Virus record (IMG/VR): IMGVR_UViG_3300042887_005053
Location: 62,001 to 126,000 of that record
Length of the DNA stretch: 64,000 nucleotides
Source: a virus
Reading direction: 5' to 3' (one strand)
The notes under the pieces are model-generated. The model ran no database searches and had not been told where the DNA came from. It was given only the letters and a program-made list of their open reading frames with translations. Position numbers and translations under genes: made by a program. Shown here one piece after another: positions 4,160-60,842 of this stretch; the stretch's first letter is position 1, and the number at the start of each line of letters is the position of its first letter.

Positions 4160-4723
4160 TTATTGTTTGTTGTGTGTTACCTTATTTAACTCATCTTTTG
4201 AGAAAGAGTCGAAGTTCATAAGTTTTTTTGGTTTACTTTCACCTTGACCTTTTGTAAAATCTTGTCTAGACATAACAGCACTTTTTAACTGTGCTAAGAT
4301 TTTATTCTTTCTTCTTTTGTTATTACCTTTTCTATTATCAACTGGCACTTTCTGGAACATTTTAGTACCACCAGCATTGTAAGGCATACTAACATCACCA
4401 GATCCAGTAGTACCACCACCTGCACTGTACCCAGGTTCTGTAGTTACACCGGTGTTATTAGAAGGTTGAGCGGCAACAACAGCTCCCATCCCACCAATTG
4501 CGGCGTTTGAGTAGGCTACACCACCTCCGCCAATACCGATACTAGCCGCACCTGCTGCACCTGCTGGACCACCAGTGCCACTCGTATCTTCAAATATTGA
4601 ATAAAGATATTCTTGTTCTTTTTCGGTTATTAGAATGTTGATATCAGAAGTATCTTGATTTTCTAAAATCATTTTAGTTCTTAGTTCAACTAGTTCTTCA
4701 ATATTTAGCTTTGTTAGATTCAT
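4160..4723 (-). CDS. Gly/Ala-rich protein with basic C-terminus, unknown function
   Basis: 187 aa in three parts: a helical acidic N-terminus (1-48), a low-complexity Gly/Ala/Ser segment (about 50-118), and a Lys/Arg-rich stretch followed by a short motif LMNFDSFSKDEL near the C-terminus. I do not recognise a family. The glycine-rich linker and basic tail would fit a virion or nucleic-acid-binding protein, which is a guess. A TATATATTAT box lies 4 nt upstream of the ATG on this strand. It is divergent from the J-domain-like gene. Confidence 0.7.
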   Translation of the reverse strand: MNLTKLNIEELVELRTKMILENQDTSDINILITEKEQEYLYSIFEDTSGTGGPAGAAGAASIGIGGGGVAYSNAAIGGMGAVVAAQPSNNTGVTTEPGYSAGGGTTGSGDVSMPYNAGGTKMFQKVPVDNRKGNNKRRKNKILAQLKSAVMSRQDFTKGQGESKPKKLMNFDSFSKDELNKVTHNKQ

Positions 4724-4727
4724 ATTT

Positions 4728-4737
4728 TATATATTAT
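4728..4737 (-). promoter_or_regulatory. TTAATATATA-type box (variant ATAATATATA)
   Basis: On the minus strand this reads ATAATATATA and ends 4 nt before the ATG of the Gly/Ala-rich gene. It is a one-base variant of the box found before many genes in this window. The promoter role is inferred. Confidence 0.4.
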
Positions 4738-4761
4738 TTTTTGAAACTGAAATAATATCTT

Positions 4762-4771
4762 TTGATATATA
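4762..4771 (+). promoter_or_regulatory. TTAATATATA-type box (variant TTGATATATA)
   Basis: TTGATATATA lies 4 nt upstream of the GTG start of the J-domain-like gene. It lies back to back with the minus-strand box at 4728-4737, making a divergent pair. Confidence 0.4.
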
Positions 4772-4775
4772 ACTT

Positions 4776-5399
4776 GTGGAGAGCTTAAGAAATCTTGAAG
4801 TCAACAGATTAATCAAAGAATTAGACTTTATTAAATCGGATTATAATTATCGGTCAGAACTAATTCAATCAATAGATAAAGAATTTATAAATTCAGTTGA
4901 AAATTTTCTAAATACACATCAAAGTCTTAAAGATATTTTTGATGAGAAAACTAAAAAAAATACTGAACATCAAAACATTGAACAAGTTCAAGAGTCAAAC
5001 TATTTTGATGAAGGCCAAGATGAGATGGTTGAGGTTATAGATGATACAATAGTTGAAATAGATGAAAATGCCAAACTTAAACAATTATATAGATTAATAG
5101 CAAAGTCTACACATCCAGATAGAATTAAAGATACTAATCTCAAAGAATTGTATGTTGAGGCAACAATGGCATATGATGAAAATAATATACTACCAATTTT
5201 AAGTATTTGTAATAAGCTACAAATTCCTTATGAAATATCAGAAGACGAAATAGCTTTAGTTAAAGAAGAAATTGAATTAACAAAGAAGAGAATAAAATTT
5301 CTAGAAAGTACATTCACTTGGGAGTGGTATAGAAACGAAGACATCAAGATTAAAGACCAGGTAATATTAAACTATATAAAACAACAGATATCTAAATAG
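4776..5399 (+). CDS. J-domain-like protein
   Basis: 207 aa. Residues 101-150 resemble DnaJ helices II and III: LYRLIAKSTHPDR contains the HPD tripeptide (113-115) that stimulates Hsp70 ATPase. The N-terminal 100 residues are acidic and probably helical, so the J-like part is internal rather than N-terminal. The start is GTG: an in-frame TAA lies two codons upstream and no ATG occurs until residue 84. Redirecting host DnaK during assembly is a possible role (inference). The 3' end overlaps the convergent gene at 5392 by 8 bp. Confidence 0.75.
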   Translation: MESLRNLEVNRLIKELDFIKSDYNYRSELIQSIDKEFINSVENFLNTHQSLKDIFDEKTKKNTEHQNIEQVQESNYFDEGQDEMVEVIDDTIVEIDENAKLKQLYRLIAKSTHPDRIKDTNLKELYVEATMAYDENNILPILSICNKLQIPYEISEDEIALVKEEIELTKKRIKFLESTFTWEWYRNEDIKIKDQVILNYIKQQISK

Positions 5400-50729: not shown

Positions 50730-50739
50730 TATATATTAA
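50730..50739 (-). promoter_or_regulatory. TTAATATATA box
   Basis: Exact match on the minus strand, ending 5 nt before the ATG at 50724 and overlapping the stop codon of the polymerase fragment. Confidence 0.5.
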
Positions 50740-51830
50740 AACCCACCACTAAAAATGTCCATTATAACAGTAAGCCTTTTAGATATTTCCGGCAGTCCAA
50801 GAGGCGCAATAATCGAATTAATTGGACTCAATATACACTTTTCAAATTGAGTATCTAAGTCAATCTCAGGTGCCATCTCAATAGGATATGATCCTCTAAT
50901 GTAAGCAAAAGTATCATTCATTGATTTATCTTTGACATAGTAATACTTGATCTTAGTTCCAGATTTGATAAACTCATACTTAGATTGTAAAGATTTATTT
51001 CTATGTAGTAAGAAGTTATAATAAGCAGAAGCTTTAACAGCAAAGTGAGCTCCACTAACAAACTCTAATTTGTCCTTATCATTCAAACACTTATCATCAT
51101 AATTTGAACAAGAAGATTGCATACAGATCTCATCTATTCGATCTGGTACACACAAGTCAAACTCTTTTCTTAAATTCTTTACTAACTTTAGTAACTCCTT
51201 AATGTTAAATGTATCTGGGTGTTCAAACAAATATTTAACAATACCAACAATCTTATCTCTTGCAAAAAGAGGAGTAGATGATCTCACAAGTTCAACTCCC
51301 TTAGGATACATATAAGTCAATCTATCATAAGGAATTCCATCTTCATAAACAATATGTTGAATATACTTCTTTTTAGCAATGTTTATAATTGATTCAGAAA
51401 TACGCTCTAACTCAAAATCTTGTTTGTTTTCAACACCATACTCAGCAGCATGTTCATCTAAACATTTTTTGAAATATCCAGCATATCTATTCTTATCTAA
51501 TGCATGAATAAACTCTAATTCTGTTTTGTATGCATGTTTCCATTCACAATGATCCATCGCTGGCTTAAATGATACAAAAAGTGAATCAGTATCAGCATAT
51601 ATAGAAACTTGCTCATCTCTTTCAATTGGAGTAACATTTTTGAGATTCATTTTTTCATGCAACTCAGTATCTAAATGCCATTGATTATACCAATAGTCTT
51701 CATTTACTTTATGCATTGTTTGCGTCAGGTTTCTACCTTCAGCTGTTATGGTTCCAGCAACATGGTTATTAAATAAAATAAAATAGGGTGTTGCGAATGC
51801 ACCGTAACTACCATTTAACACTAACTTCAA
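50736..51830 (-). CDS. 43: DNA polymerase family B, C-terminal fragment (motif B to end)
   Basis: 364 codons. The open frame begins at motif B (LKLVLNGSYGAFATPYF), includes motif C IYADTDSLF and the thumb region. The exonuclease domain and motif A are absent. The annotated TTG start is unlikely to be the true beginning: the codons just before it read KKA and are then stopped by TGA, while the expected upstream residues (NALQLA) lie 44 nt further up in another frame (51869-51973). Either ribosomes bypass 51831-51874, or the gene is broken. The N-terminal half is not in the window. Confidence 0.85.
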   Translation of the reverse strand: MKLVLNGSYGAFATPYFILFNNHVAGTITAEGRNLTQTMHKVNEDYWYNQWHLDTELHEKMNLKNVTPIERDEQVSIYADTDSLFVSFKPAMDHCEWKHAYKTELEFIHALDKNRYAGYFKKCLDEHAAEYGVENKQDFELERISESIINIAKKKYIQHIVYEDGIPYDRLTYMYPKGVELVRSSTPLFARDKIVGIVKYLFEHPDTFNIKELLKLVKNLRKEFDLCVPDRIDEICMQSSCSNYDDKCLNDKDKLEFVSGAHFAVKASAYYNFLLHRNKSLQSKYEFIKSGTKIKYYYVKDKSMNDTFAYIRGSYPIEMAPEIDLDTQFEKCILSPINSIIAPLGLPEISKRLTVIMDIFSGGF

Positions 51831-51874
51831 AGCTTTTTTTCACCCCCTCTGAAAATAATCAGAGGGGGTTATCT
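51831..51874 (-). other. Putative 44-nt translational bypass element in the polymerase gene
   Basis: On the minus strand: take-off codon GCT (51877-51875), then AGA and an in-frame TAA stop, an 11-bp perfect stem ACCCCCTCTGA / TCAGAGGGGGT with a TTATTT loop, G, seven A, and landing codon GCT (51833-51831). Joining the two GCT codons restores ...FNALQLA-LKLVLNGSYG..., the expected motif B context. GGGGGTGA before the landing site is Shine-Dalgarno-like. T4 gene 60 is skipped by 50 nt with the same parts: matching codons, stop, hairpin and an SD-like site. A plain inactivating insertion is the alternative. Confidence 0.6.
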
Positions 51875-51973
51875 AGCGAGCTGAAGAGCGTTGAAATAAT
51901 CAACTTCCTTCTTCAGCTCGTTTGCTTGTTTTTTTAGTGACTCGATCTTTTCTAATCTTTCTTCTCTAGTCAT
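51869..51973 (-). CDS. Short polymerase segment upstream of the bypass element
   Basis: 34 codons from ATG (51973) to TAA: MTREERLEKIESLKKQANEL, then KKEVDYFNALQLAR. This is a typical fingers-helix stretch leading into family B motif B (xxQLALKLxLNxxYG). An in-frame TAA lies three codons upstream of the ATG, so the N-terminal half of the polymerase is not continuous here. It is presumably the 5' exon-like part of the C-terminal polymerase gene and would be read through by bypassing. Confidence 0.6.
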   Translation of the reverse strand: MTREERLEKIESLKKQANELKKEVDYFNALQLAR

Positions 51974-52041: not shown

Positions 52042-53061
52042 ATGACTTATATGTTTAAAGAAGAAGAAGTTTTAGTTAAGATCAATGCTCGTAATGTCAA
52101 TTACTATAAAGAAAAAGGATATGATGTATCTATATCTGGGTTCACTGACTCAAAAGATTTTTTAGTAAAAACATTGGATATACCCAAAGGTTCACATTTG
52201 AAAATAATCGCAATCTGTGAATTGTGTCAGTGTGAAAAAAATATATCGATTGAGAAATATTATACAAATAAAGAAAGAAATAATAAAGGATATTATTCAT
52301 GTTTTAGTTGTAAGACAGTAGAAAAAGAAAAAACTTGCTTGAATAAGTATGGTGTAAAATCATACTCACAAACAAGTGAGTTCAAAGAGTCTGAAAGTAA
52401 AAAGTGGAAAGGAATACAGAAAGGTTCAGAAAAAGGTAAAAAAACTAATTTAGAAAGATATGGATTTGAATCTTTTTTTCAAACAGAAAAGATGAGAGAA
52501 ATGAATAGAAGTTGGATGTCATCTGATGAGTTTAGATCAAAATCAAAACAAACAATATTAGAAAAATATGGAGTTGATAGTTTTTCAAAAACATCCAATT
52601 TTAGAAACATAATTAATGAAAACAAAGAACAGATAGTAGAAAAAATAAAACAAGTTTTTTTGGACAAGTATGGTGTTAATTGGCCATCTAAAGTAAAAGA
52701 TATTGTCGATAAGTCCTTAAAAACTAGAGAGGAAAATGGTGATATCATACCACCTGAAAATTTAAGTGATTTTCAAAAATACCGAAAATTAGTTAGGAAA
52801 ATTACCAATAGAAATAAGAAAAAACTTTTTGAGGACTGGCTTGGATTTGACTATTATGATAACGAGTTTATTAAAGGTAATTTTTCACTATCATCATCAC
52901 ACAGACTATATCCAACAATTGATCATAAAATATCGATACATTACGGATTTACAAATAAAATATCAGCCTCTGAGATAGGCCATTTAGACAATTTATGTAT
53001 AACAAAAAGAAGAATTAACTCAACGAAGAGACAGTTAATAGAAGAAGTATTTAACTCATAG
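52042..53061 (+). CDS. Homing endonuclease with KYG-type repeats and HNH-like domain
   Basis: 339 aa. Four or more copies of LxKYGVxSxSxTxxFRE (about residues 108-230) are the DNA-binding repeats of large free-standing phage endonucleases. The C-terminus YPTIDHKISIHYGF then HLDNLCITKRRINSTK is an HNH-type nuclease pattern (DH, H, N). It is inserted beside the split polymerase on the opposite strand and 17 bp before purB, which fits a homing cassette that invaded the polymerase gene. Confidence 0.8.
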   Translation: MTYMFKEEEVLVKINARNVNYYKEKGYDVSISGFTDSKDFLVKTLDIPKGSHLKIIAICELCQCEKNISIEKYYTNKERNNKGYYSCFSCKTVEKEKTCLNKYGVKSYSQTSEFKESESKKWKGIQKGSEKGKKTNLERYGFESFFQTEKMREMNRSWMSSDEFRSKSKQTILEKYGVDSFSKTSNFRNIINENKEQIVEKIKQVFLDKYGVNWPSKVKDIVDKSLKTREENGDIIPPENLSDFQKYRKLVRKITNRNKKKLFEDWLGFDYYDNEFIKGNFSLSSSHRLYPTIDHKISIHYGFTNKISASEIGHLDNLCITKRRINSTKRQLIEEVFNS

Positions 53062-53078: not shown

Positions 53079-54401
53079 TTAAATACCAGTATAATTAGTT
53101 GGACTCATACTTTTTAATTCTTTTTTTATGAGTTCTGGTATTTCTAATTGGTCGATAAATTGGTTGATTACTTCTTGGTCTATTTCTTTTCCTCTAGCAA
53201 GTTCTTTAAGTTTTTCGTAGGGTTCTTGTACTTTTTCTCTTCTTAAAACAGTTTGGATTCCTTCGGTTACAACAGACCAATTATTTTCTAAATCTTCTGT
53301 TATTACTTCTTCATTTAATACAAGTTTATCTATTCCTTTTTTAATTGAGTCTATACTTATTGTAATGTGCGCAATTGGAACCCCGATATTTCTGAGTACA
53401 GTTGAATCTGTTAAATCTCTTTGTAGTCTTGAGATTGGTAGTTTTTCTGATAGATGAGTTAGTATAGCATTTGCCATTCCTAAATTTCCTTCTGCATTTT
53501 CGAAGTCGATTGGATTTACTTTGTGTGGCATTGCTGAAGAACCGGTTTCATTTGGATTCGTTTTTTGATTGAAATAGTTCATAGAAATGTATTGCCAAAT
53601 ATCTCTACAAAAATCAATTAGAATTACATTGATTCTTCTTAGGTTGTCGAACAAAACAGCAAGTGAATCATAATGATCAATTTGAGTAGTATATTGAGAC
53701 CTTTTTAATCCCATTTTTTGAGTGAAAATATTTGCAAATTCTTTCCAATCGATTTGTGGATAAGCTACATGATGGGCATTAAAGTTACCTGTTGCTCCGC
53801 CAAATTTACAAGAAAGTTCTATTTTATGTAAACTAAGAATTTGATTATCTAATCTTTCAACAAATACCATTAATTCTTTGTCCATTTTGGTTGGAGAAGC
53901 AGGTTGACCGTGTGTATGAGCAAGCATTGGTGTGTCTTTACAATTATCTGACAAAGACTTAATCTTATTATTTAGTTCGGTTATATCTTTGATATAAGTA
54001 TTTAGCCAATTAAGAAGTTGTAAAGGAATTGCTGTGTTATTAATATCTTGTGATGTTAGACCAAAATGAACAAACTCTTTGAATTCAGATAGGTTAAGTT
54101 TTTCTAATTTTGTTTTGATAAAATACTCGACTGCTTTTACATCGTGATTGGTCTTTTTTTCGATTTCTTTTATCTCATTAGCATCGGCTTCACTAAAGTC
54201 ATAGTAAATACTCATAAGATCATTAGCATTAGGTATGTTAAGATTTATGGCATTATTTAGTTCAATTAAATATTTGACTTCAACATATACTCTATATTTA
54301 ATAAGAGCGAATTCCGAAAAGAATTCTGATAGTTTTTGAGTTTTGTTGTGATATCTACCATCAATTGGACTTACTGAGGTTAAGGGTGTTAATTTATTCA
54401 T
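53079..54401 (-). CDS. purB: Adenylosuccinate lyase
   Basis: 440 aa from the ATG at 54401 (an 8-codon extension to a TTG is possible but unlikely). Fumarase/aspartase superfamily signature GSSAMPHKVNP, MLAHTHGQPASPT with catalytic His, and VSPIDGRY at the N-terminus. It removes fumarate from SAICAR and adenylosuccinate in purine and AMP synthesis. Its start overlaps the clamp stop (ATGAATAA), so it is translated with the clamp gene. PurB in a phage replication operon is an unusual metabolic gene. Confidence 0.95.
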   Translation of the reverse strand: MNKLTPLTSVSPIDGRYHNKTQKLSEFFSEFALIKYRVYVEVKYLIELNNAINLNIPNANDLMSIYYDFSEADANEIKEIEKKTNHDVKAVEYFIKTKLEKLNLSEFKEFVHFGLTSQDINNTAIPLQLLNWLNTYIKDITELNNKIKSLSDNCKDTPMLAHTHGQPASPTKMDKELMVFVERLDNQILSLHKIELSCKFGGATGNFNAHHVAYPQIDWKEFANIFTQKMGLKRSQYTTQIDHYDSLAVLFDNLRRINVILIDFCRDIWQYISMNYFNQKTNPNETGSSAMPHKVNPIDFENAEGNLGMANAILTHLSEKLPISRLQRDLTDSTVLRNIGVPIAHITISIDSIKKGIDKLVLNEEVITEDLENNWSVVTEGIQTVLRREKVQEPYEKLKELARGKEIDQEVINQFIDQLEIPELIKKELKSMSPTNYTGI

Positions 54402-55179
54402 CGTCTGCGGTAAAGTCTTGTTCAAAGCTGAGCATCAAATTTGAGTTTTCGTCTTTGACTAAAATAAAGGTTTCGAAAATACTGAAATAAATGTTGTCAT
54501 TTTGATCATTAATATTTGATAAATATTTTTTACCAAAAATTAATTGTGTGTTTTTAGCATCAACTTCATCAACTATAAGTTCCCATTTTGATAGTTCATT
54601 CATAGTTACTTTATTATCAGTTACATTAATATTAACAATTCTTTCTTCGTTGTTAATACCACAAAGTTTCTTAACATCTGCGAAATCTTCTTTAGAAATT
54701 TTGAATGACCACTTTGATAATTTTGGATTTAGTCTTGTTTCTAAAAATTGTGGATTTAGATCACGGATTTTGTGTTGTTCTCCACCAACAATAGTGATTT
54801 TCAGTTTGTTATTTGTAAACTGTGCTGCTCTAACATGCATAGTATCTTCTGAGTCTGGACTTGGTTTGAATACTAAATCTAGTTTAATAGTCGAGTTAGT
54901 GTTAAATAAAGCTAAGTTCTTAGCAAATTTTGTAGCAGAAGTGATGATTAAATCGAAAGTAGTATCTTGTTTGAAACCTTCAATATAGTCATCTGTCTTC
55001 AAGAGATAAGTTTTAAGTGCTAAAACACTAACATCGTTAGATATCATTGAATAGAGTAGAATATTAGAACTTGTGATTTTAATTTTAACACAGTCTTCAA
55101 TATTAGTGAGGTCTTTGAATTTTTGTAGAAAGTCACTAAAGTTATTTTGATTAAATTTTAATGCTAATTTATTTGCCAT
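54394..55179 (-). CDS. 45: DNA polymerase sliding clamp, gp45-like
   Basis: 261 aa. Two repeated beta-alpha-beta halves with LALKFNQNNFSDFLQKFKDL at the start and KWSFKISKEDFADVKKLCGI at the second half fit the T4 gp45 clamp, slightly longer than T4 (228 aa). It rings DNA and tethers polymerase; in T4 it also activates late transcription. It precedes purB with an 8-bp overlap. A TTAATATACA box is just upstream. Confidence 0.75.
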   Translation of the reverse strand: MANKLALKFNQNNFSDFLQKFKDLTNIEDCVKIKITSSNILLYSMISNDVSVLALKTYLLKTDDYIEGFKQDTTFDLIITSATKFAKNLALFNTNSTIKLDLVFKPSPDSEDTMHVRAAQFTNNKLKITIVGGEQHKIRDLNPQFLETRLNPKLSKWSFKISKEDFADVKKLCGINNEERIVNINVTDNKVTMNELSKWELIVDEVDAKNTQLIFGKKYLSNINDQNDNIYFSIFETFILVKDENSNLMLSFEQDFTADDE

Positions 55180-57625: not shown

Positions 57626-57847
57626 ATGGATATTAAATTTGAAATCGAAAAGGCTCAAAAAATTGAAATTCTCAATGATAATGATTTACAAAGTGTAAAA
57701 GAATTATACTTTTCTAAGGATGGTATTTTACCAAAAATTTATAATTTTGCTACTACGAAAAAAGGAGAAGAGTCTTCACTTATTTTATCGGATTTAAATA
57801 AAATCAGAAGTATAATTACCAAAAAAATAAGTGATTATACTAGCTAA
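57626..57847 (+). CDS. Small unknown protein
   Basis: 73 aa from ATG 57626 (an upstream TTG would add 13 hydrophobic residues). Lys/Glu/Asp-rich helices, no motif recognised. Alone on the plus strand, overlapping the convergent PPK2 end by 8 bp. Confidence 0.55.
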   Translation: MDIKFEIEKAQKIEILNDNDLQSVKELYFSKDGILPKIYNFATTKKGEESSLILSDLNKIRSIITKKISDYTS

Positions 57848-59000
57848 TAACACTAACTACTTCAGGATAATACTCACAAGCTTCTGGATTTTTGCCTTCA
57901 TAGTTAATAACTGATAATGCATATCTCATGGCATTTAATCTACCAATTCTTTTATCGTTTGAATTGATTATTGTCCAAGGAGCTTTTTTAGTTGATGTTT
58001 TTTCAAACATCTGATTTTTGTACATTGTAATAATATTCCACTTTCCGATTACTTTTTCATCGTTTGGTGAAAACTTCCAGAATTTAATAGGTGATGTTTT
58101 TCTTAATTCAAATCTTTGAATTTGTTTTTCTTGTGTTATAGAAAACCAAAACTTAATTAAAGTAATTCCTTGATTAACTAATCCAGCTTCCCACTTATTA
58201 ACATTTTCCATGAAATCTCTATACTGTTCTTCAGTACAATATCCCATAGCTGGTTCAACTACAGCTCTGTTATACCAAGAACGATCAAAGAAAACAATTT
58301 CACCAGGTTTAGGTAATTCTTTTTCGTATCTCGCAAACCAATTATTCTTTTCTTCTTCAGTTGGCATTCCAAGAGCAACAATTCTGAATATTCTTGGATT
58401 CAAAACTTCTGTGAATCTTTTTATAGTAGAACCTTTACCAGCTGAATCTCTACCTTCAAAAACTATTGCAATTCTTTGATTTGTATTTTTAACCCATTCT
58501 TGTAGTTTAACTAGTTCAATTTGAATTTGGTATTTTTCATCTTCGTATTGTCTTCTTGTTAGAATAGATTTTTCACCTTCCATTCTGTCAATGTGTTCTT
58601 CTTCTGGTGATAAACCTTCAGCTTTTTCAATGTATTCATCAACTCTATCGATTAATGACTCATAGTAGATTTCGAATTCTGCTGAAATCATTTTTTTGGT
58701 CCTTTTTCCTTTTAAATCGAGTAGTTGGTGTATTTTTCTTAAAAAAGTTTCTGTATTAAAAAAAGTAACTATTTCTTTAGTGAATTCTTTTTCTAGTTCA
58801 CTTAAAATCATTTCAATATCGATATTGTCAAAATCTTTATAGATTACTTCGCCTTTTTCTGTAGAAATATTTTCTAATATAAAATCACGATAAGTGTTCA
58901 ATCTCATCACAAATTGATTTTCGATATCTTGAAGTTCTTCTACTGGTAGTTCGAATTCTAATTCTTCGTTTAGAAATGTATTAAATGGTTTGAGTTTCAT
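57840..59000 (-). CDS. ppk2: Polyphosphate kinase 2 with capsid-targeting-like N-terminus
   Basis: 386 aa. PPK2 core from about 145: VKLQEWVKNTNQRIAIVFEG, Walker A EGRDSAGKGS (182-191), Walker B FFDRSWYNRAVVEP (237-250), and the lid region EKQIQRFELR. PPK2 moves phosphate between polyphosphate and nucleotides (mostly NDP to NTP). The core is about 240 aa; the extra 140 N-terminal residues begin MKLKPFNTFLNEELE, a good match to the packaged-protein peptide (cut LNE|E). Delivery with the virion to make ATP/GTP from host polyphosphate is the inference. Confidence 0.9.
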   Translation of the reverse strand: MKLKPFNTFLNEELEFELPVEELQDIENQFVMRLNTYRDFILENISTEKGEVIYKDFDNIDIEMILSELEKEFTKEIVTFFNTETFLRKIHQLLDLKGKRTKKMISAEFEIYYESLIDRVDEYIEKAEGLSPEEEHIDRMEGEKSILTRRQYEDEKYQIQIELVKLQEWVKNTNQRIAIVFEGRDSAGKGSTIKRFTEVLNPRIFRIVALGMPTEEEKNNWFARYEKELPKPGEIVFFDRSWYNRAVVEPAMGYCTEEQYRDFMENVNKWEAGLVNQGITLIKFWFSITQEKQIQRFELRKTSPIKFWKFSPNDEKVIGKWNIITMYKNQMFEKTSTKKAPWTIINSNDKRIGRLNAMRYALSVINYEGKNPEACEYYPEVVSVIS

Positions 59001-59015: not shown

Positions 59016-59914
59016 ATTTTTGAGTCAAATATATAAACATCAAAAGTAGTATTACCTTTGACTTTTTTAATCTTTTTAAGTACATCGCCTGATATTGAAT
59101 CCAAAACTTTAAATACTCCAATATTCGTTCCTTTTTCATCTAATATCTTAACTGTATTTCCTGGTTGACCGAGTGCACCAAGCATTGCTACATATTTGTT
59201 TCCATAAATACTTTTTAAGAAAGAAACTCTAATATTTGCAACATCCTTAATATTATTTACATAAGGATTGTCTAATGGATTATTTAAATCTAAGATTGTA
59301 TCAGTTGCTTTAGCTTTAACTGTGACGAATTTTCTGGTTTCTTCTCCTAAGGTTATATCTTCTTTATTTTGAATTTCTTGTGATTTAATTAAAGCTTGTT
59401 GATTTTTTCTTATTTCGTTAAAATCAGCTCTTGCTAAAATTCCACCTCTCATTCCTTTGTCATTCATATTATATCCTGATGGTGGAAGTCTATAGAAAGA
59501 ACCTGTAAATGTAACTGATAAAAGTCTATCGAATCTAAATAGCCTCCAAATTTTATTAATATGTCTATTTCCTGATACAGACCATCCATTTAAGTGGTAT
59601 CCTCTTATTAAAAATTTCCCTTTAGATGATTTACCGATAACCATTGGATAAATCACTCTTTCTGATCCCATAAATCTTTTATCTTTTTCCCCTTTATAAT
59701 TGATAAGAAAAACCATTCCATATTTAATAGCCTTCATAATGAGTTCTTGTGTGGGTTTTAGTGGCTCATTAACTGGTATATCCGCTATATTTTTAATATT
59801 TTTTAATTGAAATCTAGGAACATAGGAATTATCCTCTTTTAGGTTATAATTCTCTTTAATTACAAACTCAATTGGCTTGGTGTTAAAATAATTTTTTACT
59901 TGACTTATGTTCAT
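59012..59914 (-). CDS. WYL-like domain protein
   Basis: 300 aa. About residues 62-140 (MVFLINYKGEKDKRFMGSER, VIYPMVIGKSSKGKF, LIRGYHLNGWSVSG) resemble a WYL ligand-binding domain. No helix-turn-helix is seen, so it may sense a ligand rather than bind DNA. The C-terminal part (about 240-300) is beta-rich. A truncated copy of its 5' end lies at 60880-60967, across the GIY-YIG gene. The GIY-YIG end overlaps this start by 32 bp. Confidence 0.6.
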   Translation of the reverse strand: MNISQVKNYFNTKPIEFVIKENYNLKEDNSYVPRFQLKNIKNIADIPVNEPLKPTQELIMKAIKYGMVFLINYKGEKDKRFMGSERVIYPMVIGKSSKGKFLIRGYHLNGWSVSGNRHINKIWRLFRFDRLLSVTFTGSFYRLPPSGYNMNDKGMRGGILARADFNEIRKNQQALIKSQEIQNKEDITLGEETRKFVTVKAKATDTILDLNNPLDNPYVNNIKDVANIRVSFLKSIYGNKYVAMLGALGQPGNTVKILDEKGTNIGVFKVLDSISGDVLKKIKKVKGNTTFDVYIFDSKI

Positions 59915-60842
59915 TATATTTAAATATCTTTTTAGATTTTATAAGTGAAAGTAAATTATTGATTTTCACATTTTTATTATCATGTATTACGTGAAGAATA
60001 TTTTTATATATTTTGTTATCTTTTTCACTTTTTATTTCTTTATCCATTAGTATCAAATATTGTCCAAAATTATTTTCAATTTTTGATTGAAAATAATCAA
60101 TTTTTGGATGAGATTTATATCTCCATAGATATCCTGCAGTTTGAAACCTTTCTCCCATACAAACTTGATTTATTTTAGATAGACTAATTTTATTATACAT
60201 TGATGCTTCTGTTAAGGATTTATATTCTGTTTGATTATTTAAATAATCAATTCTTGTAACAGGATACTGTTTTTTGTTTCTTATTCTTTCTTCAAATTTA
60301 TCTTCTTTATATAAAAATATAAATTTATTTTTCCATATTTTTATATCACCATTGCATATTTGACTAATAGTCTGTGGATGAGTATTATTCATCTCACCAG
60401 CCTCCTTTACTGATTTGTATTCTTCTATAAAATTACCATCTATATCATATTTAACCACTGGTCTATTTAACTTTTCTATGTAATCATTTTTGTGTTTATA
60501 TCCAATAAAAGTTTCACCACCCTTGGTATAATTTGTTAAAGGACCTGTTTTATCCACAATTCTACCTATTTCTCTTATTAGTTTTATTTCTATTTCTATA
60601 GCCTCTTCATTTGTGAGGTTATTTTGGATTTTTCTTATAATTGGTTCTATTCCTGCCTTTTGTATTTTTAATATCTTATTATTCTTTAGTGGATTCCATT
60701 CTTTAATTTTAAGATGTCTGAGATATCTTGATTTTTTGCCTTTACCAATATAAAATGGTTCATATTCTAATTTGTATCCATCATAGTTATATTGTCCTGG
60801 TTTTCTTGGATCCATATAGACATAGATATAATATTCATTCAT
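59883..60842 (-). CDS. GIY-YIG homing endonuclease with NUMOD-type repeats
   Basis: 319 aa. YYIYVYMD (4-11) and FYIGKGKKSRYLRHL (about 30-44) form the GIY-YIG nuclease core; later acidic Glu in TNEEAIEIEIKLIREIG. Two NUMOD1-like units (VKYDIDGNFIEEYKSVKEAG and RIDYLNNQTEYKSLTEAS) follow. It sits between a remnant and the full copy of the WYL-like gene, fitting homing into that gene. Confidence 0.85.
   Translation of the reverse strand: MNEYYIYVYMDPRKPGQYNYDGYKLEYEPFYIGKGKKSRYLRHLKIKEWNPLKNNKILKIQKAGIEPIIRKIQNNLTNEEAIEIEIKLIREIGRIVDKTGPLTNYTKGGETFIGYKHKNDYIEKLNRPVVKYDIDGNFIEEYKSVKEAGEMNNTHPQTISQICNGDIKIWKNKFIFLYKEDKFEERIRNKKQYPVTRIDYLNNQTEYKSLTEASMYNKISLSKINQVCMGERFQTAGYLWRYKSHPKIDYFQSKIENNFGQYLILMDKEIKSEKDNKIYKNILHVIHDNKNVKINNLLSLIKSKKIFKYNEHKSSKKLF

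Follow-up and report, generated by a model that had tools for sequence, protein, structure and literature searches.

The gene for the C-terminal half of a split family B DNA polymerase is interrupted, in the viral DNA studied here, by a short insert that falls within motif B and carries a stop codon and a hairpin. We consider it quite probable that the insert belongs to a mobile cassette with a linked endonuclease and that ribosomes cross it by programmed translational bypassing, which explains the arrangement best. A bypass like that of T4 gene 60 was the original prediction for the window (the whole 64,000-nucleotide stretch analyzed, to which all coordinates without a locus name refer). It is now the best-supported reading, and comparative evidence has added to its strength. 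To that prediction the present analysis adds a split gene, an upstream stem-loop, an endonuclease gene, and a family of inserts.

Anatomy of the interrupted polymerase gene

The features in the window are listed here.

50736–51973, minus strand: split DNA polymerase of family B, gene for the C-terminal half (PF00136, E = 9.4e-14; phrog_1918, E = 6e-47)
51869–51973, minus strand: 5' ORF, MTREERLEKIESLKKQANELKKEVDYFNALQLA-R-stop, starting 25 codons before YFNALQ, as in intact relatives
51877–51920, minus strand: 5' stem-loop in coding sequence (z = −6.97 relative to synonymous shuffles)
51875–51877, minus strand: putative take-off codon GCT (Ala), 33 codons from the ATG
51834–51874, minus strand: noncoding gap of 41 nt, comprising AGA, the stop codon TAA (51871–51869), the hairpin, and an A-rich spacer
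51842–51869, minus strand: gap hairpin of 11 bp with a 6-nt loop (−22.9 kcal/mol for the gap)
51831–51833, minus strand: putative landing codon GCT (Ala), 8 nt past the stem
50736–51830, minus strand: resumed reading frame (LKLVLNGSYGAFAT...), contiguous in intact homologues
52042–53061, plus strand: putative homing endonuclease, divergent (PF24308, E = 1e-13; phrog_12131, phrog_3339)

The polymerase gene begins at ATG 51973–51971 on the minus strand and covers the fingers with motif B, motif C, and the thumb; the exonuclease domain is missing, and the break lies near the 5' end. Direct reading of the minus strand bore out the predicted interruption of motif B by an in-frame TAA and a perfect 11-bp hairpin. 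The hairpin arms (A51869–A51859 pairing with T51852–T51842) are followed by an A7 spacer at 51840–51834, between the hairpin and the landing codon. The predicted length of 44 nt was confirmed when measured as the gap plus the landing codon, and because of this length the 5' and resumed frames differ: the resumed frame opens GCT TTG AAG TTA and is −1 relative to the 5' ORF. Joining GCT to GCT yields ...YFNALQLA-LKLVLNGSYGAFAT, which intact relatives show without a break. The claimed GCT codons at both edges, their −1 relation, and the joined sequence NALQLA-LKLVLNGSYG are thus all correct. The AGA between take-off and stop is also present and, as was said, unlike T4, but a sense codon there proved to be the norm for the family. 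A Shine-Dalgarno (SD)-like role proposed for GGGGGTGA was unsupported; the tract exists, but the Gs in it form the 3' arm of the hairpin. Also considered was a T4-style take-off from the codon that precedes the stop; it was rejected because motif B residues would then be lost or added.

The N-terminal half, with the exonuclease domain and motif A, is encoded tens to more than 100 kb away from the C-half in relatives G001 (464 kb), G019 (436 kb), G004, G005, and G009. It was not found on the 204-kb record that contains the window; this record is possibly a fragment. No record examined, G001 included, had a second copy of the C-half. An ATG 25 codons before YYNALQ is kept in most loci, intact and interrupted alike, from which it follows that the gene split is older than the insert. 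Among the relatives are huge phages that have not been cultured, along with Prevotella Lak phages and phages of Chryseobacterium; the bacterial and archaeal genomes searched yielded no close relative, and the Lak phage polymerase has an uninterrupted motif B. Aquatic "moraphages," predicted to infect Bacteroidota (PMC12619734), may be near kin of these phages.

In one relative, motif C (DTDS) of the same polymerase gene holds an intein splicing domain (L006:3479–4054, PF14890). Broken frames indicate an intein at this motif in L005, L030, and L064 as well, and an intein-like sequence follows DTDS in Lak phages L275 and L276. With inserts at motif B and an intein at motif C, the gene has been invaded at two sites.

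A family of inserts at motif B

Relatives were gathered by scans of IMG/VR, and about 57 distinct versions of the gene were examined. The insert was present in 33 and absent from 24; the latter, uninterrupted relatives of the kind that the original prediction had proposed to look for, were contiguous at motif B. Inserts occupied six codon positions, in codon register, within one stretch that reads NALQLALKLVLNGSYG when intact.

After the second Ala of NALQLALKLVLNGSYG: window, L006, L012/L016, L041
After the Leu following the second Ala: about 16 loci
After Val: L030, L116
After Gly: L040/L043
After Ser: L007
After Tyr: L004, L013, L017–L019, L039, L079

The gap plus landing codon measured 36, 38, 39, 40, 41, 42, 43, 44, 46, or 48 nt, covering all three phases. 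Although the insert sequences were diverse, their form was constant: a take-off codon, usually one sense codon, a stop codon, a stem, an A-rich spacer, and a landing codon. The stem, C-rich on one arm and G-rich on the other, has 9–13 bp and in nearly all elements begins 5–6 nt past the take-off codon; the spacer between stem and landing is variable, mostly 4–8 nt. The stop directly follows take-off only in L007, L030, L055, and L116, and a nearby stop is missing in L003, L013, and L040/L043.

The first two bases of the take-off and landing codons were identical in 24 of 29 elements, a match for which p-values assume independent origins and are a guide only; take-off codons mostly end in T and landing codons in A. 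Matching failed in five Tyr-position elements (L004, L017, L018, L019, and L079), which land on AAC, GAC, or AGC and could form at most two of three pairs with tRNA-Tyr. In L013 and L039 the change is from TAT to TAA, acceptable as a P-site codon. The loci are kin both by descent and by cassette transfer, and elements at the same position are related, so that these counts are not independent; nearly all of the data are metagenomic DNA.

Of 21 related phage records (~3 Mb), 12 contained the strict pattern TARCCCCCN{8,20}GGGGG, each of them a single time and at the polymerase gene only; a second match in G006 was the same hairpin on the opposite strand. The reversed control pattern had zero matches in the same 21 records. 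Because the strict pattern was restricted to the polymerase gene and the reversed control was empty, we concluded that the insert is not a chance occurrence. Scans of the collected loci for the element in other genes gave polymerase matches only; matches outside the polymerase gene in a further scan did not join open frames. Comparison of the gap hairpin with Rfam gave no credible match. Both ORFs of interrupted loci were under purifying selection (5' ORF, mean pN 0.205 and pS 0.748). The hairpin G run is one G longer in one of two near-identical loci, L068 and L071, that come from separate metagenomes; this difference, real or a homopolymer error, would shift the phase.

A stem-loop upstream of the take-off codon

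In the window, CGAGCTGAAGA (51920–51910) pairs with TCTTCAGCTCG (51887–51877) to form a 5' stem that reaches the take-off codon, with an inner stem at 51904–51900/51894–51890. All elements at the Ala and Leu positions had such a stem-loop (z from −3.8 to −7.2 relative to synonymous-codon shuffles), with stems of at most 13 bp, as in L016 (AGCGAGCTGAAGA/TCTTCAGCTCGCT). Intact relatives had a mean z of −0.33, with a few moderately low values (Mann-Whitney over all types, p = 8e-6). Across 19 loci, 85% of cells were paired and five pairs were changed on both sides, which none of 500 shuffles matched; for 19 intact loci, pairing in these columns was 45%, with no excess. Such covariation counts are inflated by relatedness; the difference from intact loci, however, holds independently of the shuffles. 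In Ala and Leu elements, synonymous codons build a covarying 5' stem-loop before take-off that is absent from intact loci. Elements at the Val and Gly positions had smaller stems before their own take-off codons (z = −5.0, −2.6, −3.2, and −2.5), and in Ser and Tyr elements a clear 5' stem-loop was missing or only a weak one was seen.

An adjacent putative endonuclease gene and mobility of the insert

The putative homing endonuclease gene lies 68 nt from the polymerase start and encodes a DUF7487 region and a conserved C-terminal TIDHK...NLCITKR block. Its assignment is based on profiles and context; a fold search with a model of the protein gave nothing significant, an HNH nickase (4h9d) appearing at E = 1.3. 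Homologues start 77–145 nt before the YYNALQ codons in 18 interrupted loci, that is, within ~70 nt of the polymerase ATG, and one also adjoins the gene in L082 and L272. A GIY-YIG/NUMOD3 protein takes this place in L031 and a remnant in L055. Of 32 interrupted loci (L272 having been added later), 21 had an endonuclease or remnant upstream, compared with 1 of 24 intact loci (L095; Fisher p = 1.6e-6). About eleven interrupted loci now have no neighboring endonuclease.

Several pairs of loci indicate that the insert moves horizontally with its flanks. L017 and L022 form a filled and empty pair with 92–99% identity downstream and dissimilar upstream sequences, and L012 and L013 encode the same protein downstream, with inserts at different positions. 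The endonuclease, leader, and insert of L012 and L016 are 99–100% alike, and the fall to 90% just downstream fits the end of a conversion tract. L056 is identical to L055 apart from the loss of ~400 nt that include the endonuclease remnant, with the insert retained. The inserts have a scattered distribution on the polymerase tree: their presence and absence required a minimum of 16 changes, and strongly supported branches force 9 of these.

The endonucleases of L003, L007, L017, and L018 join the conserved nuclease C terminus to differing N-terminal regions, which suggests swapped DNA-binding parts, perhaps matched to the insert positions. In L068 an N6/N4 DNA methylase gene (4303–5052, PF01555) occupies the usual endonuclease place directly upstream of the interrupted polymerase, and the methylase could protect the site. 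Elsewhere in the window are an adenylosuccinate lyase gene (53079–54425; PF00206, PF08328) adjoining the endonuclease, a phage-encoded polyphosphate kinase 2 gene (57840–59000; PF03976), and a second putative homing endonuclease gene, of the GIY-YIG type (59883–60842; PF22945, weak NUMOD1).

Proposed mechanism and alternative explanations

Alongside the anatomy, conservation, endonuclease association, and mobility documented above, we infer release, sliding, and landing of the ribosome, a nuclease target, and immunity, as follows. The cassette would consist of a homing endonuclease and a hairpin insert in the 5' part of the C-half gene, with bypassing removing the harm. By the sequence, a ribosome that has read 33 codons holds peptidyl-tRNA-Ala on GCT 51877–51875, with a strong hairpin ahead and a refoldable 11-bp stem behind. 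The peptidyl-tRNA would release this codon, and, as has been proposed for T4, the upstream stem would refold and thereby push the mRNA through the ribosome. The tRNA would then re-pair at GCT 51833–51831, and decoding would restart in the new frame, the product being an uninterrupted C-half to partner the separately encoded N-half. In the DNA, the insert would disrupt the endonuclease target in the conserved motif B sequence, and with its target broken the cassette would be immune to its own nuclease and could spread by homing. Bypassing would keep the essential polymerase alive, and the insert could outlast loss of the endonuclease.

Plain frameshifting or stop-codon readthrough might be suspected from the hairpin adjoining the stop codon, but insert lengths in all three phases mean that no fixed frameshift or readthrough can work, and the hairpin codons would enter motif B; we give this reading almost no credence. 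It is similarly hard to believe that these are dead genes or assembly errors. In favor of that view, the exact window element was matched in no other IMG/VR record, but identical or nearly identical elements of other loci were found again in independent metagenomes, the coding parts on both sides are conserved, and there is no second C-half copy. The comparative data already contradict this reading, including the assembly error that the original prediction had named as a risk. Synthesis of a leader peptide and an internally started C-terminal fragment, assembled in trans, would suit a polymerase that is already split in two, and the resumed frame of the window offers TTG 51830 and a GTG, with the G run as a possible ribosome binding site. 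However, L002, L003, L006, L012, L013, L039, L040, L068, and L071 have no ATG, GTG, or TTG before codon +29 of the resumed frame after the site. The motif B lysine precedes the gap at the Val, Gly, Ser, and Tyr positions, and purifying selection persists on the leader, which argues that the leader is translated as protein. We regard two separate products as quite improbable.

Because frameshifting, readthrough, and internal initiation fail, bypassing or RNA excision is left. Excision would require a hairpin mini-intron of 36–48 nt, cut and ligated by phage or host enzymes, and a new class; we know of no bacterial intron class of that size. It would permit any insert length and phase, would account for Tyr-position elements that lack matched codons, and could use the fixed spacing of the hairpin from the junction as a processing signal. 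Against it, no Rfam intron matched, and a recognizable intron core is missing from just 36–48 nt. Nor does it predict the matching in codon register (24 of 29), the bypass-like size ceiling, or the covarying stem-loop at take-off, and we consider excision unlikely. In favor of bypassing are the register of the codons, the upper limit on insert size, the constant spacing of the hairpin, and the stem-loop just before take-off. Counting against it are the unmatched Tyr landings, the Tyr and Ser elements without a clear 5' stem-loop, the mostly sense A-site codon, and the lack of KKYK.

Implications

Counterparts of T4 gene 60 have long been expected (PMC5009743), and among T4-related phages that gene was described as the sole case (PMC3014915). 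A device that, in phages, was known from T4 alone now looks like a widespread mobile system, and the full-text literature searched (open-licence papers only) held no description of the polymerase inserts. Nature has supplied a collection of roughly 30 variants over six codon positions, along with intact relatives to serve as controls; spacing, stem, stop and landing codons, and upstream stem-loop all vary within it. With this collection it can be tested which signal parts are needed, whether a specific nascent peptide is needed, and whether bypassing serves self-protection in homing cassettes. There is also a practical warning, as gene callers will shorten an essential polymerase in these phages.

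Comparison with known systems

Several other systems resemble the inserts in part. The Byp elements of Magnusiomyces capitatus mitochondria are likewise short bypassed inserts in many copies, whose take-off and landing codons sometimes match at only two of three bases (PMC5009743), but they occur in many genes under relaxed mitochondrial decoding, whereas here there is a single element in each genome, always at the one site and with a link to an endonuclease. The short hops proposed for the terminase of Streptomyces phage Hau3 and the adhesin of Prevotella loescheii, one of them in Bacteroidota (PMC5009743), are lone cases that have been little pursued and have neither a comparative family nor an endonuclease link. 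In Aeromonas phages 25 and 44RR, gene 43 is likewise split, so that two genes (43A/43B) encode the family B polymerase, and phage 25 has an associated endonuclease; a bypassed hairpin within the C-half is not described (PMC2988022).

The closest parallel is T4 gene 60/mobA (PMC5009743, PMC3014915, PMC11194080, PMC2988022). Both systems have a split essential replication gene with a homing endonuclease next to its downstream part, an insert a few dozen codons past the start, a stop near take-off, a hairpin in the gap, a stem-loop before take-off, matched codons, and a gap of ~50 nt or less. For T4 it has been proposed that the mRNA is pulled at take-off by a 5' stem-loop that refolds in the wake of the ribosome (PMC5009743), and sliding is processive up to 56 nt (PMC11194080). 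The differences are several. The T4 gene encodes a topoisomerase rather than a DNA polymerase and has another endonuclease, and it is one case, compared with many phages and six insert positions here, where the gene split predates the insert. In T4 the stop directly follows take-off, whereas a sense codon usually comes first here (AGA in the window), and the T4 take-off codon lies inside a stem (PMC5009743) that here begins 5–6 nt later. The T4 nascent peptide has KKYK ~30 residues before the P site; the leader here is lysine-rich and of fitting length but lacks KKYK, and intact relatives have the same leader. The SD-like site ~6 nt before the T4 landing codon is not conserved here, the only G-rich tract being in the hairpin arm. 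There is no sequence link to T4 gene 60. Given the other gene, the other endonuclease, the mostly absent direct stop, and the lack of KKYK and of a conserved SD-like site, the inserts would be filed not as descendants of T4 gene 60 but as a variant, whose kinship with it is probably one of mechanism.
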